A stretch of 27,605 nucleotides of DNA, from positions 1 through 27,605 of the IMG/VR virus record IMGVR_UViG_3300040806_001064; one strand, written 5' to 3'. Both the position numbers and the translations under genes were made by a program. Positions 3,658-22,628 of the stretch are shown here, piece after piece (position 1 is the stretch's first letter; every line of letters begins with the position of its first letter). Under the pieces are notes generated by a model. It saw nothing but the letters and a program-made list of their open reading frames with translations. It was not told the origin of the DNA and searched no databases. This stretch comes from a virus.

Positions 3658-4386
3658 TTACTTGGTTTGTGCAGGAAGAATATAATTGTATTCTGCCAAA
3701 CCACTGTCAACAGTAAGTTGCATAGCACCCTGATCGGAAATGCTCATAGTAACCTTACCATCTAAGTTTAAAATTGCTTGTACCTGTGCTACAGGCCAAG
3801 ACCATGAATGCTTCAGTGTAGTATTAACATCTGTTGCAAACACAAAAGTACCAGCGTGTGAACTTGCATCACCAAAACTAAACACTAGATTAGTACCATC
3901 TGTTTTAACACTAAACACATTTTCTTCTGTGTGTGCCGCACTCATTAACTTCATACGCTGAATAGCCGCGATTGATGGCTCAACTACAACGTCCCAAGCC
4001 GCACCTTTAAACTTAACAGTCTTAAGTTTCTCTTCGATGATTTGCTTATTCATAAAGCGATAATCATTTTCAAAGTCGCCTGTTGCATTTTCAAAGTGAA
4101 TATGTGTTGGAACTGTTTCGCCGTTGCGGTCTGCTTCAACTACATCAATCTTAGCATCCTTTTGATACTCTGGATTCTTTAAGTGCAATGCTAACTTTTC
4201 TAAATTAGGCATACCAAATGTGCCTTTAAATTCACTAATTGGTGTTTTAGTTTGCGAACTTAAAATCACTGAACGATCTTCTGCCATTGATTCGATACTA
4301 GTATCGGTTTCGCTTGTTACCTTCACAATGTTAAGAAAACCTAACGAATGTGTGTGGGCAACGATGTCTTGTAAAATGTCTTTCAT
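3658..4386 (-). CDS. 45: DNA polymerase sliding clamp (gp45-like)
   Basis: 242 residues, close to T4 gp45 (228 aa). The overall pattern matches gp45 proteins of marine T4-like phages: an N-terminal helix (LQDIVAHTHSLGFLNIVKV), the strand segments SVILSSQTKTPISEFKGTFG and MPNLEKLALHLKNPEYQKD, a central linker, and C-terminal beta strands typical of ring clamps. In T4 the trimeric clamp tethers gp43 to DNA and also activates late transcription by contacting gp33 and gp55. Here it lies four genes downstream of the polymerase. It has its own strong sigma-70-type promoter and an AGGAG SD just before the ATG. Its start overlaps the stop of the epimerase gene by 4 bp. Confidence 0.85.
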   Translation of the reverse strand: MKDILQDIVAHTHSLGFLNIVKVTSETDTSIESMAEDRSVILSSQTKTPISEFKGTFGMPNLEKLALHLKNPEYQKDAKIDVVEADRNGETVPTHIHFENATGDFENDYRFMNKQIIEEKLKTVKFKGAAWDVVVEPSIAAIQRMKLMSAAHTEENVFSVKTDGTNLVFSFGDASSHAGTFVFATDVNTTLKHSWSWPVAQVQAILNLDGKVTMSISDQGAMQLTVDSGLAEYNYILPAQTK

Positions 4387-5153
4387 GATTTATCTCCTAT
4401 TGTTACATTATATTTAGAAAAACTGGTTTTGTCAAGTGTTTTCTCTTGGTTTAGATAATCTAATATGCCAATTTCTGATTTCCAACCTAAATCAAATAAT
4501 TCTGTTGGATTGGCTAGATTATCATCTAGTTCAAAGTCATTACCTGAACGCATAGGAACATCTAGTCCCCAAACGTCTGCAATGTCTTTTAAATGTACAG
4601 ATGTACCTGTACCTACATCAATTACTCCTGTAACACTAGAACTTAACAGTACAGTAATTGCTTTACACACATCTGAAACGTGTATAAAATCTCTTTTATG
4701 GTTATTAATATATGTTACTTCATTCCTTAACAACTTAGGAATAAACATTTCTGGTCTTTTATCTCCACCATAAACTGTTCTAAATCTTAATCCTAAACTG
4801 TTATTTGGTGCAATATGTTCCATAGTAAATTTTGTTAGTGCATAAGGATTACGATACGGATCAATAGCAGTACTTGAACTAGCATAAATTATCTTAGTAC
4901 TTGGAAAAGCATCAAATAATCTTTTAGTTGCTTCTACATTATTATACCAATATTCTTTAGGCTCTTTAATACTTTGTCTTACTCCGCTTTTTCCAGCAAG
5001 GTGTACAATAACATCTACATCATAATCTAAGTCACAGGTATTTAGGTCTTTGCCTAATAAAAGGTCTATAAACTGTAATTCGTGAATACCAATCCAATAC
5101 TTTTTAAGTATTGAACCAATTAGACCTTCACTACCTGTTAATAAAATTTTCAC
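4383..5153 (-). CDS. NAD-dependent epimerase/dehydratase (extended SDR)
   Basis: 256 residues with a Rossmann start MKILLTGSEGLIGSIL (T-G-x-x-G-x-x-G motif at 6-13), a DVIVHLAGKSG segment (VHLAG is typical of extended SDRs), the serine region IIYASSS, and the active-site YALTK (Y-x-x-x-K). Short for the family (usually 300-340 aa), mostly at the C-terminal substrate domain. Likely acts on a nucleotide sugar, perhaps for host-surface or phage glycan changes; substrate unknown. The start is GTG at 5153, with GTGA overlapping the stop of the glycosylase gene. The clamp promoter lies inside its last codons. Confidence 0.8.
   Translation of the reverse strand: MKILLTGSEGLIGSILKKYWIGIHELQFIDLLLGKDLNTCDLDYDVDVIVHLAGKSGVRQSIKEPKEYWYNNVEATKRLFDAFPSTKIIYASSSTAIDPYRNPYALTKFTMEHIAPNNSLGLRFRTVYGGDKRPEMFIPKLLRNEVTYINNHKRDFIHVSDVCKAITVLLSSSVTGVIDVGTGTSVHLKDIADVWGLDVPMRSGNDFELDDNLANPTELFDLGWKSEIGILDYLNQEKTLDKTSFSKYNVTIGDKS
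4407..4435 (-). promoter_or_regulatory. Consensus sigma-70 promoter for the clamp gene
   Basis: TTGACA (4435-4430), a spacer of exactly 17 bp, and TATAAT (4412-4407), all perfect matches, 20 bp upstream of the gp45 ATG at 4386. The predicted leader is about 14 nt and contains the AGGAG. This would give high early expression of the clamp separate from read-through of the upstream genes. Confidence 0.8.
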
Positions 5154-9397: not shown

Positions 9398-9668
9398 TTT
9401 GTGCCTTATCATCTATCCATATATCGTAATGAGGTTTGCCAAATCTTAAACTGTGATATTTGACGCCCCATTTGTTAAGTTGCCTAATTGTAAATTCTTC
9501 CCAGTCCTTGCCTGAGTTTGCGCCTCTTGCTGTCCAGTAATGTATTTCATTGCCTTGCTCATACAGTTCATTAAAATGTTTAATTCTTTCAGCATCAGGT
9601 TCACTAATTTCATATTTACTGTTATTATTATAGCAAATTGTTCCATCAATGTCAACCATATATTTCAC
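9357..9668 (-). CDS. HAD-superfamily phosphatase-like protein
   Basis: 103 residues with a minimal HAD core: MVDIDGTIC (D-x-D at residues 5-9), HYWTARGA (motif II Thr), and a motif IV region in GKPHYDIWIDDKA (D-D). No cap domain. Such short HADs occur next to sugar or nucleotide genes in phages and capsule clusters; the substrate is unknown. In T4-like phages, small HADs may also act as polynucleotide 3' phosphatases, but the kinase half is not here. It lies 1 bp downstream of the next gene and overlaps the membrane protein gene. Confidence 0.8.
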   Translation of the reverse strand: MKYMVDIDGTICYNNNSKYEISEPDAERIKHFNELYEQGNEIHYWTARGANSGKDWEEFTIRQLNKWGVKYHSLRFGKPHYDIWIDDKAQNDKEYFKTIKNST

Positions 9669-18335: not shown

Positions 18336-18343
18336 TATTTATC
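18336..18343 (-). promoter_or_regulatory. Late-type box GATAAATA directly before a start codon
   Basis: GATAAATA between the clpA stop and the ATG at 18330, five bases from the ATG. There is no purine-rich SD, unlike the similar sites at 13137 and 13970, so a leaderless late transcript is a real possibility here. It marks the border between the early clpA cassette and the late block. Confidence 0.5.
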
Positions 18344-18347
18344 AGTT

Positions 18348-20600
18348 CTATGCAGTTACAGTTTGTTTTTCAACAACAACATCAAGGTTAATTTTACCTT
18401 CTTTAGCATCAATATTTAAGTGACCGCCGTTCTTAAGATCGCCGAATAATAAGATTTTACTTAAATCTTTCTTAATTTCTTTATCAATAACACGCTGTAA
18501 AGGTCTTGCACCCATCTTACGATCAAACCCTTTATCTACTAGATAATCAATAGCATCATCAGTAACAGTAACAGTTACATTTTGTTCAGTAAGCATTTCT
18601 TTAAGTTCAACTAAAAACTTACCTACAATTTTAATCATTGTATTCTTTTCAAGATTACCAAATTTTACAACACCATCTAATCTGTTACGGAATTCTGGAG
18701 CAAAAAACTTTTTAAGTTCTGTATCTTCATACTCACGTTCGTCTTCTTCGCCAAATCCGATAGTATTCTTTTCTGCTTCAATAGCACCTAAGTTTGTTGT
18801 TAAGATCAGTACACAATTTTTACCGTCTGCTTCTTTACCATTTGAACCTGTAATTTTACCATTGTCCATAAGTTGTAGTAAGATTTGTGAAACATCTGGA
18901 TGTGCCTTTTCAATCTCATCAAGTAATAGTACACAGTTAGGATGTTCTTGTAATTTTGTAATCAATAAGCCTGCATTGTCCTCAAATCCTACATATCCTG
19001 GAGGTGAACCAATTAACTTTGCCACCGAATGTTTTTCTTGATACTCTGACATATCAAAACGTACAAGTTTAACACTGAGTTGATCTGCAAGTTGTTTTGC
19101 TGTTTCTGTTTTACCAACACCTGTTGGACCCATGAATACAAATGAACCGATTGGTTTTGTATCAGGTTTTAATCCTGCTTGAGCAACAAGAATCTTATCT
19201 ACAATATCATCGATTGCAGAGTCTTGGCCAAATACAACTTTCTTAAGATTGCCTTCAAGAGTTGCTAGGTTACTTGTTTCTTTTTGTTGTACTTGCTCTG
19301 GCGGTAGATTTACAACTTTAGCAAGTTCAAACTGGATTTCTTCTTTACCAACAATCTTATCGCCTTCAACTTTCTTTAAGTTAAATCTTGAACACGCTAA
19401 GTCAATCAAGTCAATTGCTTTATCTGGCAACTTCTTATCTGCTTGATACTTGACACTTAACTTAATTGCAGTATCAATTGCTTCTTCTGTAATAGTTGTT
19501 TTATGGAATTCTTCGTAGTATTTTTTGATACCTTCTAAAATACTTTTAGTTACACTTGCAGTAGGCTCGCCTACTGTAACTCTTTGGAATCGACGCATTA
19601 ACGCACGATCCTTTTCAAAGTACTTTCGATACTCTTCCCAAGTAGTTGAAGCAACAACTTTAATATCACCTTTACCTAATGCTGGCTTTAGCATATTAGC
19701 AAGATCATTTGAATTGCCCTGGCCGCCGGCACCAGCACCGTTAATCATGTGTGCTTCGTCGATAAACATAATAGTCTTGCCTTGCTTTTTAATACCAGCC
19801 ATAACAAGTTTAAAACGTTCTTCAAAATCTCCGCGATACTTACTACCTGCAAGCATAGCACCAATATCAAGGTTATAAACTTTATATTCTTGTAAAAACT
19901 CCGGCACTGCTTTGTTTACAATATTCCAAGCAAGTCCTTCTGCAATAGCAGTTTTACCAACACCTGGATCACCTACTAGTAACACATTGTTCTTTGAACG
20001 ACGTCCTAGTGCAAGTGCAATAGTTTCTAATTCATCAGTTCTTCCAATTACAGGGTCAACATTATTCTTGGCAACTTCTGAATTAAGGTCAGTTGTAAAC
20101 TCACGTAATGCTTTTTGACCAAGTGTACGCATTTCTTCATCTTCGTATGCGTTATCTACTTCGCTATTAAGATACTCTGCAAATTCTTCTTTTTTAATTC
20201 CTGCTTTTTGAATGTAGTAGTATGCAAAACTTTTCTTTTCATTAAGAATACTTAGGAATACATCTGTAACTTCAATATGGTGACGTCCATTAAACAGAAC
20301 TTGTGTAAACGCTCTATTTAGAACACGTTCTACTGTTGCAGTCTTTTTAGGTTTAAACTTTTTATTTTCTGCTTCAACAGGTAAAGTAATATCTTCTAAT
20401 TCATTCTTTAAATAATTTTCAATATTCTTTTTAATAAATTCAGGATCAGCACCTACACCTGCAATTAAGTTACAGAAATTATCTGAACAGAGCATTGCAA
20501 AAAGAACGTGTTCAAGAGTTACATACTCGTGATTAAGTTTCTTAGCATCGCTAACTGATTTATCAAATACCGATTGTAGTTCGTCGCTTGGTTCAACCAT
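18348..20600 (-). CDS. clpA: ClpA-like AAA+ unfoldase
   Basis: 750 residues, nearly the length of E. coli ClpA (758). An N-terminal Clp repeat domain (about 1-145) is followed by AAA module 1 (Walker A GDPGVGKT 210-217, Walker B IMFIDE 277-282, RRF arginine region near 336-338) and AAA module 2 (GPTGVGKT 491-498, LLLDEIE 558-564, FRNRLD 637-642). There is no ClpB-type middle coiled coil. NTIGFGEED at 612-620 carries the I-G-F tripeptide at the position of the ClpP-docking loop (IGL in E. coli ClpA). No ClpP or ClpS gene is present in this window, so it may pair with host ClpP. Overlaps the PDF stop by 8 bp; belongs to the dnaJ-def-clpA transcript. Confidence 0.92.
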   Translation of the reverse strand: MVEPSDELQSVFDKSVSDAKKLNHEYVTLEHVLFAMLCSDNFCNLIAGVGADPEFIKKNIENYLKNELEDITLPVEAENKKFKPKKTATVERVLNRAFTQVLFNGRHHIEVTDVFLSILNEKKSFAYYYIQKAGIKKEEFAEYLNSEVDNAYEDEEMRTLGQKALREFTTDLNSEVAKNNVDPVIGRTDELETIALALGRRSKNNVLLVGDPGVGKTAIAEGLAWNIVNKAVPEFLQEYKVYNLDIGAMLAGSKYRGDFEERFKLVMAGIKKQGKTIMFIDEAHMINGAGAGGQGNSNDLANMLKPALGKGDIKVVASTTWEEYRKYFEKDRALMRRFQRVTVGEPTASVTKSILEGIKKYYEEFHKTTITEEAIDTAIKLSVKYQADKKLPDKAIDLIDLACSRFNLKKVEGDKIVGKEEIQFELAKVVNLPPEQVQQKETSNLATLEGNLKKVVFGQDSAIDDIVDKILVAQAGLKPDTKPIGSFVFMGPTGVGKTETAKQLADQLSVKLVRFDMSEYQEKHSVAKLIGSPPGYVGFEDNAGLLITKLQEHPNCVLLLDEIEKAHPDVSQILLQLMDNGKITGSNGKEADGKNCVLILTTNLGAIEAEKNTIGFGEEDEREYEDTELKKFFAPEFRNRLDGVVKFGNLEKNTMIKIVGKFLVELKEMLTEQNVTVTVTDDAIDYLVDKGFDRKMGARPLQRVIDKEIKKDLSKILLFGDLKNGGHLNIDAKEGKINLDVVVEKQTVTA

Positions 20601-21114
20601 GTGTTAAAAATTCCTTATATTTTTTTAATAATTTTTGTTGTTTTTTCTTAGCCATATCTAGTTTAAGTTTACTTACACGGTCAATATAGTTAATACCGTA
20701 TAAGTGGTCAAACTCATGTTGAAAGATTCTAGCATTCCAGCCTGTAAACTCTATTGTACATTCTTTTGCGTTACTGTCAATGAACTTTGCTACCAAAGCC
20801 TGGGCTCGTGTTACTTTAAAAAACAAACCCGGAAAACTTAAACAGCCTTCTTCACCTGTAACTTTTTCTTCAGACACTGCTTCTATTGTAGGATTAATAA
20901 TAGCAAACGGCTTATCATATCCTTCAAGACCTTCTGGCTCCATTACAAAAATTTTAGCATCTAACCCAACTTGATTAGCACTTAGACCAACACCTTTGTG
21001 CTTGTCCATAATTTCAATCATCTGCTTTTCAATGTCTTTTGCATCAAGTTTATCAAAGTCAAATGGTTTAACTTCTTTGTCTAACCATTCATTTGGATGA
21101 TATACTAATTTCAT
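20593..21114 (-). CDS. def: Peptide deformylase
   Basis: 173 residues with all three PDF motifs: GVGLSANQVG (41-50), EGCLSFPG with the metal ligand Cys91, and QHEFDHL with His133, Glu134 and His137. It removes the formyl group from new proteins. Some marine phages carry PDF, often shortened; this one is near full length, with a basic C-terminal helix (KLKLDMAKKKQQKLLKKYKE) which in bacterial PDFs helps ribosome binding. ATGA coupling with dnaJ. Confidence 0.93.
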   Translation of the reverse strand: MKLVYHPNEWLDKEVKPFDFDKLDAKDIEKQMIEIMDKHKGVGLSANQVGLDAKIFVMEPEGLEGYDKPFAIINPTIEAVSEEKVTGEEGCLSFPGLFFKVTRAQALVAKFIDSNAKECTIEFTGWNARIFQHEFDHLYGINYIDRVSKLKLDMAKKKQQKLLKKYKEFLTHG

Positions 21115-21947
21115 TTAATTTTCCTAATTAATTCAAGTTGGTCTTCAGTAAGATTTTTTGTAATCTCTCCGTTAATTTTTAAGTAAATGTTGCCTGATAA
21201 TCCAGTATTGTAATCAGGTAGTCCGTGTCCTCGAATACTCATTACAGTTCCTGGCTGTGTGCCTCTTGGTATGTTTATACTTATAGTTTTTCCGTTAGGT
21301 ATATCTAAATTTGTGGCTGTTCCTAACATTAAATCGAACACATTGATTTTAATGTCAGTATGCAAGTTAAAGCCGTCTACATTGAAGTTTGGATGTCTAA
21401 GTATTCTAATTTTAACATTTAAATTACCTTTTGGTAAATTTGGAATACTATCATCTCCTAGTCCTTGATAACGTATAGTATCTCCGTGCCTTGCACCTTT
21501 TGGAATATCTATATTAACTGTTTGTTCTCGACCGGATCTTGTTTTAAAAGAGGCTATCACACCTTTACCGTTATATACATCTTCAAGTGAAATATCACAA
21601 GCAATAGTAACATCAGCATTTTGTTGTCGCTGTCTACGTTGTTGAAACCCTCCACCAAAAAATGTAGAAAACAAATCATTTACATCACCATCAAACTGGA
21701 ACCCGCCAGGTCCTCCAAAACCTTGTTGTTGGAATCCTGCTTGTTGTGGATCAGCAGTTCCAAATTGGTCGTACATTTGTTTCTTTTGTGGATCTTTTAG
21801 TGTTTCGTAGGCTTCTTTTATTTCAACAAATTTTTTCTGATCACCACCTTTGTCGGGATGATGCTGTGCCGCAAGTTTACGGAAAGCAGTTTTAATATCT
21901 TTTTCGGAAGCGTTTTTAGAAACGCCTAATAAGTCATAATAATCCAT
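21111..21947 (-). CDS. dnaJ: DnaJ/CbpA-type Hsp40 co-chaperone
   Basis: 278 residues. J domain with HPD (His30-Pro31-Asp32, in AAQHHPDKGGDQ), then a Gly/Phe/Gln-rich linker (GTADPQQAGFQQQGFGGPGG, LFSTFFGGGFQQRR), then two C-terminal beta domains (GARHGDTIRYQGLGDD, GTQPGTVMSIRGHGLPD). No CxxCxGxG zinc finger, so type II, CbpA-like. It stimulates DnaK; no DnaK gene is in this window, so the host DnaK is a likely partner. First gene of a three-gene cassette whose promoter places the start of the RNA at or next to this ATG; no SD is visible. Confidence 0.92.
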   Translation of the reverse strand: MDYYDLLGVSKNASEKDIKTAFRKLAAQHHPDKGGDQKKFVEIKEAYETLKDPQKKQMYDQFGTADPQQAGFQQQGFGGPGGFQFDGDVNDLFSTFFGGGFQQRRQRQQNADVTIACDISLEDVYNGKGVIASFKTRSGREQTVNIDIPKGARHGDTIRYQGLGDDSIPNLPKGNLNVKIRILRHPNFNVDGFNLHTDIKINVFDLMLGTATNLDIPNGKTISINIPRGTQPGTVMSIRGHGLPDYNTGLSGNIYLKINGEITKNLTEDQLELIRKIK

Positions 21948-21953
21948 AGCACT

Positions 21954-21982
21954 ATTATATACTTAGTTTAGGCGTTTGTCAA
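21954..21982 (-). promoter_or_regulatory. Perfect consensus sigma-70 promoter for dnaJ-def-clpA, probably leaderless
   Basis: TTGACA (21982-21977), 17 bp, TATAAT (21959-21954), then only six bases (AGTGCT) to the ATG at 21947. With the usual 6-7 bp from -10 box to start site, the RNA would begin at the A of the ATG. It lies in the 38 bp gap between dnaJ and the lysis region. Confidence 0.85.
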
Positions 21983-21985
21983 GTA

Positions 21986-22315
21986 TTACTTGTCTGACTT
22001 TTTGCTTGAACCTGTATAAAGACCAAACCAAGCCGCACCAGCACCAACTACGATACTAACCAAGCCTGATTGTTCCATTGTTGGATTAGGTAATTCCATA
22101 TACCAAACTACAACTTTGTATAATAGAACAATGTATGTTGTAATGAATACTCTTGGAAAAATTCTCCAACTATCAACTGCACGAGCCAAATGTATTAATC
22201 TTGCATATGGATTTGGTCCTAGATCTTTTACACTTGTGTCAACTTCTAATTCAACTGATACTTTTTTTGAAGCAGAATTTTGATCTGCTGGTACTACAAT
22301 CTTATCGTCACTCAT
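21986..22315 (-). CDS. Membrane protein, holin candidate (109 aa)
   Basis: 109 residues: a charged N-terminal tail of about 45, then two hydrophobic helices (IFPRVFITTYIVLLYKVVVW and SGLVSIVVGAGAAWFGLYTG) and a short basic end (SSKKSDK). The A-x-W-F-G-L-Y-x-x-G ending of the second helix is like putative holins of marine phages, as I recall. Position in the lysis region supports a holin or holin-associated role. ATGA overlap with the upstream gene at 22312-22315. Confidence 0.65.
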   Translation of the reverse strand: MSDDKIVVPADQNSASKKVSVELEVDTSVKDLGPNPYARLIHLARAVDSWRIFPRVFITTYIVLLYKVVVWYMELPNPTMEQSGLVSIVVGAGAAWFGLYTGSSKKSDK

Positions 22316-22620: not shown

Positions 22621-22628
22621 TATTTATC
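22621..22628 (-). promoter_or_regulatory. T4-type late promoter box GATAAATA
   Basis: GATAAATA on the minus strand, about 24 bp before the ATG at 22596. It overlaps the stop codon of the 24-residue frame. Confidence 0.6.

Follow-up and report, generated by a model that had tools for sequence, protein, structure and literature searches.

Six bases ahead of its start codon, the dnaJ gene of this virus carries a perfect sigma-70-type promoter that would make the A of the AUG the first base of the RNA, and the sequence of that promoter, once transcribed within a longer RNA, would fold with the opening codons of dnaJ into a hairpin around the AUG. We regard as probable the whole explanation, in which dnaJ is expressed from a leaderless mRNA and the hairpin enclosing the AUG silences read-through RNA. 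Comparison with related loci argues for the geometry and conservation of the promoter, for a wider class of leaderless genes to which dnaJ belongs, and for conserved pairing in the hairpin. Both the class and the conserved hairpin in read-through RNA had escaped a preliminary description of this DNA, in which the leaderless dnaJ mRNA was proposed.

The stretch of DNA analysed, referred to here as the window, is a virus record of 27.6 kb with 36% G+C that contains T4-type genes for DNA polymerase, PhoH and endolysin. The closest cultured polymerases to that of the window are those of Sinorhizobium phage Phosso (49% identical) and Agrobacterium phage Atu_ph07 (46%), and the dnaJ promoter arrangement is a trait of a marine family of bacterial viruses. 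The dnaJ gene (21111–21947, minus strand) encodes a protein of 278 residues that belongs to the DnaJ (Hsp40) family, with a J domain containing the HPD motif (PF00226, 6e-23) and a DnaJ C-terminal substrate domain (PF01556, 1e-31); H30, P31 and D32 are invariant in the DnaJ alignment. The match to the Pfam J domain begins at residue 2, aligned with profile position 1, which confirms this start codon and rules out one further downstream, a finding that the preliminary description had named as incompatible with its proposal. In frame on the 5′ side of the ATG there is one stop codon (TAA) and no start codon. The gene forms a cluster with those for peptide deformylase and a Clp ATPase (18348–21947) that is also present in Sinorhizobium phage Phosso, and Agrobacterium phage Atu_ph07 likewise has dnaJ beside clp.

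Read on the minus strand, the promoter consists of the −35 hexamer TTGACA (21977–21982), near-invariant in sigma-70-type relatives, a 17-nt spacer (21960–21976) and the −10 hexamer TATAAT (21954–21959), conserved in relatives, with AGTGCT (21953–21948) separating the −10 box from the ATG (21945–21947). Both hexamers match the consensus at all 12 positions, as had been described, and the spacer is within the 16–18 nt that define a sigma-70-type promoter, although this consensus is that of sigma-70 and may not be that of the host polymerase. Counted from the −10 box, the A of the dnaJ ATG (21947) is base seven and has a T before it, the usual start point of sigma-70 RNA polymerase, and it is the predicted transcription start. 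From the sequence we infer the actual 5′ end of this RNA and its early timing. The upstream sequence contains no Shine–Dalgarno motif ahead of the ATG, again in agreement with the preliminary description, and the gene thus has the AUG start without Shine–Dalgarno that marks leaderless genes. Within the 13.6 kb scanned, the dnaJ site is the sole match at 12 of 12 positions. A further perfect sigma-70-type promoter (4407–4435, minus strand) has an ordinary leader, with AGGAG before the ATG at 4386, and provides a leadered contrast to dnaJ. Another perfect TTGACA-17-TATAAT (9627–9655, minus strand) lies within a region coding for a VDIDGTI motif and recurs in relatives; it is probably a by-product of the protein motif.

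Searches with DnaJ yielded 41 and later 80 loci, which together represent 57 distinct start regions, the window included. Sigma-70-type −35 and −10 boxes occupy the same positions as in the window, with the fixed 6-nt gap, in 20 of the 57, and 18 of these 20 match the consensus at 11 or more of 12 positions. A T4-like late motif, TAAGTA or TAAATA, is found at exactly −11 to −6 in 29 of the 57 loci, usually as GATAAGTA five bases before the ATG, a position that likewise sets +1 on the AUG. Another six loci have a strong Shine–Dalgarno instead. The comparison of upstream regions that the preliminary description had suggested therefore reveals a fixed promoter-to-ATG spacing across the 57 distinct loci, exact in 49 of them. 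Since the late motif replaces the sigma-70 promoter at the same distance, the type of promoter evolves and the leaderless geometry stays constant. Together with the distribution of leader lengths described below, the fixed gap and the equally placed late motif support the proposal that the RNA starts at the dnaJ start codon. At dnaJ of the cultured relatives Atu_ph07 and Phosso there is no such promoter. Within the promoter spacer (21960–21976, minus strand), a TAAGTA-like stretch beside the −10 box is kept in the sigma-70 clade beyond the needs of the outer stem, and is perhaps a relic of the late motif. The ATAAGTA just upstream of TATAAT in this clade was considered as a second, late promoter and rejected, the peak at −19 apparently arising from dnaJ alone.

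The same geometry occurs at other genes. We predicted leader lengths over 1,296 gene starts in 19 related contigs, counting early promoters at 11 or more of 12 matching positions. For early promoters the predicted leader was 0 nt in 35 cases and 1 nt in one, with none at 2–12 nt and the remainder at 13 nt or more; for late promoters it was 0 nt in 39 cases and 1–3 nt in two, with none at 4–10 nt and the remainder at 11 nt or more. Six promoter sites altogether fell just inside the open reading frame. Leaders are therefore either absent or long enough to hold a Shine–Dalgarno, and the nearly empty gap between 0 and 11–13 nt indicates that leaderless genes form a real class served by early and late promoters. 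Consistent with these counts, ATAAATA before first-ATG starts in the 19 contigs has a broad mode between −41 and −23 and is also sharply concentrated at −12, where 37 cases stand beside fewer than three at each of −13 and −11; TATAAT and TTGACA peak at −12 and −35, respectively. The leaderless families are orthologous rather than independent and amount to about five early and eight late families.

This gap in leader lengths bears on the possibility that an AT-rich phage genome simply yields promoter-like strings and that their spacing from the ATG is accidental. Loose promoter matches in the 13.6 kb are indeed not commoner than in shuffles (39 versus 47), but perfect sites number 3 in the window (spacers 15–19) against 0 in backward-read controls and 96 against 7 in 26 related contigs, and the late leaderless geometry occurs 47 times against 3 in controls. 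With the exact spacing at most dnaJ loci in addition, chance, already disfavoured, is scarcely credible.

Leaderless genes of the early type are mostly enzymes and include dnaJ, a DNA polymerase III alpha-like fragment and a cytidylyltransferase-like gene. Those of the late type include a 113-residue gene with a weak match to a virion structural family and further genes that are likely, by sequence, to be structural. In the window, the 113-residue gene has GATAAATA (18336–18343, minus strand) 5 nt upstream of its ATG (18330), and this geometry is repeated in 19 contigs. The motifs GATAAATA and GATAAGTA ahead of likely structural genes resemble the T4-type late promoter TATAAATA, which is used with the gp55 sigma factor, and one relative has a gene for a gp55-like late sigma. 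Here, however, the late motif is often placed for a leaderless start, whereas the T4 genome has no peak at −12; genome-wide, the jumbo relatives Atu_ph07 and Phosso have no clear excess of the late leaderless pattern. A search of a limited body of literature gave no account of late promoters placed for leaderless starts in T4-like phages. A stand-alone protein of 173 residues in L051 (G008), with orthologues, matches the DNA polymerase III alpha NTPase domain (PF07733) and has a leaderless early promoter.

Upstream of dnaJ, a small conserved gene (21986–22315, minus strand; phrog_10198, of putative function) ends 3 bp before the −35 box. Between its stop codon and the box there is no terminator-like site, and the two small genes that precede dnaJ have a late-promoter-like motif in front of them, GATAAATA (22621–22628, minus strand), recognised by its sequence. 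Owing to these three features, we infer read-through RNA from the adjacent lysis-region genes into dnaJ. Such an RNA would contain the promoter sequence as RNA, which would pair with dnaJ codons 2–10 to form a long hairpin around the AUG, and with the AUG enclosed in this way the read-through RNA should go untranslated. RNA made from the sigma-70-type promoter of dnaJ itself would begin with the A of the AUG and lack the 5′ arm; its AUG would be exposed at the 5′ end, from which this mRNA without a Shine–Dalgarno would be translated. The promoter would thus have two roles, as a start site and, in longer transcripts, as a silencing arm in the form of RNA, and DnaJ would probably be made only from its own promoter. 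As the read-through RNA likewise has no Shine–Dalgarno, its translation may be inefficient even if no hairpin forms.

The outer stem of the hairpin is an inverted repeat. Its 5′ arm, AAACGCCTAA (21968–21977, minus strand), extends from the end of the −35 box into the promoter spacer, and its 3′ arm, TTAGGCGTTT (21920–21929, minus strand), lies in dnaJ codons 7–10. In the predicted fold, the −10 region pairs with codons 2–6 as an inner hairpin (21930–21965, minus strand) with the AUG in its apical loop, and the fold predicted for the read-through RNA of the window has an energy of −22.4 kcal/mol (z −3.8). Across 18 sequences and the 13 pairs of the stem, both sides have changed in 11 cells, a number reached by 0 of 500 shuffles, and the covariation is 0.195, compared with at most 0.083 for slid stems; a single stem pair switches between G–C and A–U (AAACGCC/GGCGTTT versus AAACACC/GGTGTTT). 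Covariation was not clear in the first 16 sequences and became clear after more divergent loci were added. Native upstream and coding sequences fold better together than swapped combinations, in the sigma-70 class and the late class each (0 of 2,000 permutations), these permutations, like the shuffles, ignoring kinship among orthologues. Synonymous recoding weakens the fold on average, with a mean z of −1.6 and −1.5 in the two classes compared with −0.6 for the Shine–Dalgarno type. In the swap comparison dnaJ is an outlier among 38 gene families, with a z of −3.7; the next family has −1.8 and most are near or above zero.

A different hairpin, AGTAGTCCATGCGAT-AAGTA-ATTGTATGGACTACT, is found in six late-type relatives. 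Its covarying stem of 15 bp is 98.9% paired, with compensatory changes, and includes the AUG itself; at sigma-70-type loci the AUG has a mean pairing of 0.34 and is surrounded by the hairpin, in a loop, more than it is base-paired. The late-type loci L033, L040, L137 and L180 have a weak hairpin.

The location of one arm between the −35 and −10 boxes, with the arm centres 53 bp (about five helical turns) apart, would also suit a DNA operator, at which protein binding or looping across the two sites controls the promoter. This is highly improbable, because one-sided changes in the stem core are all G–U-compatible in the dnaJ-sense RNA, sense RNA of the sigma-70 clade folds far better than antisense (z −5.1 versus −1.8), and late-type relatives retain an enclosing hairpin whose sequence and spacing are far from those of the sigma-70 type. 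In the late class, sense and antisense RNA score equally well in pairing, so that neither strand is favoured there.

If the structure acts as RNA, it could serve the upstream transcript: with dnaJ still leaderless, the hairpin would protect the 3′ end of the lysis-gene RNA or be a processing site, for example for RNase III, and enclosure of the AUG would be incidental. Such a function is unlikely. The hairpin does follow directly on the upstream stop codon, and its length would suffice for RNase III; the 3′ arm, however, sits in dnaJ codons, the hairpin persists where the upstream gene is a different one (L034–L036, L007 and L013), and in the second hairpin type the AUG itself is base-paired. 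The absence of a U-run after the 3′ arm led us to reject an intrinsic terminator.

A third possibility is that longer transcripts provide most of the dnaJ expression, in which case the promoter would not be the main start and the hairpin would regulate this chaperone gene from the 5′ region, for instance as an RNA thermometer. Start-region hairpins are frequent in heat-shock genes, and that of dnaJ is conserved. We nevertheless consider this very unlikely, given the near-perfect promoter with its fixed geometry, its exchange in relatives for an identically placed late motif, and the presence of the same leaderless geometry at other genes without a hairpin. An RNA thermometer is a structure in the 5′ untranslated region of the main transcript that pairs the Shine–Dalgarno; in dnaJ the promoter is part of the structure, and melting would free no Shine–Dalgarno, so the hairpin does not have this form.

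Silencing of read-through RNA, the reading we prefer, has precedents for its parts, as leaderless mRNAs and silencing by a hairpin that contains the promoter are each already known. Leaderless translation in phages has usually been met as single cases such as lambda cI, whose leaderless mRNA, transcribed from the sigma-70 promoter PRM, begins at the A of the AUG. That case concerns one repressor gene, whereas here the class comprises several genes, early as well as late, and dnaJ has a hairpin in addition. In lambda, the longer PRE transcript is better translated than that of PRM, the opposite of what we propose for the dnaJ read-through RNA. The translation starts of T4 genes e, soc, 49 and I-TevI are covered by a fold in longer transcripts; a promoter is located within the DNA for the 5′ strand of this fold, so that this strand is missing from the short transcript (PMC3014915). 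The dnaJ locus shares both features, with a conserved hairpin over the translation start in the longer RNA and a short RNA predicted to lack the 5′ strand. The T4 genes differ in having a late promoter and a short transcript with a leader and ribosome binding site (PMC3014915). In the window, by contrast, the short transcript has neither late promoter nor Shine–Dalgarno, the promoter is of the sigma-70 type, the mRNA is predicted to be leaderless and the gene is dnaJ; by these comparisons the dnaJ hairpin works like the T4 gene e type and is not a member of it. In Deinococcus–Thermus, a −10 motif about 6–7 bp before the start codon, the distance seen at the phage dnaJ, gives reporter-supported leaderless expression; these are bacteria, mostly with no −35 box, and neither a late-promoter class nor a silencing hairpin was described (PMC12340547). 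In the limited literature searched, we found neither the combination of leaderless start and hairpin nor an early and late leaderless class in this lineage.

Slightly more probable than not is a broader ‘leaderless-only’ mode, in which early and late promoters are set for AUG-first mRNAs, the dnaJ promoter sequence in longer RNA silences the start codon, each RNA is translated or not according to its start point, and dnaJ lineages have exchanged early and late promoters with no loss of either the leaderless start or the silencing hairpin. If a T4-superfamily lineage does make AUG-first early and late mRNAs, leaderless translation would be a phage-wide strategy, and start codons and transcription starts would be predictable from sequence alone. 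The dnaJ hairpin offers a testable case in which one stretch of DNA would be both a promoter and, once transcribed, the silencer of its own gene.

Hairpins as a general trait of leaderless genes were rejected, as the other families lack them and the 113-residue family is borderline (swap z −1.8); this last gene may share the silencing logic. In the window and in orthologues of the 113-residue gene, GCATA at the end of clp can often pair with TATGC at the gene start. At dnaJ loci of another clade (L030 before 3001, L039, L029, L031, L041 and L150), a small hairpin, GGATtgcttaaggaggATCC, has a strong Shine–Dalgarno in its loop, and in L039 its two arms change together (GCAT/ATGC).
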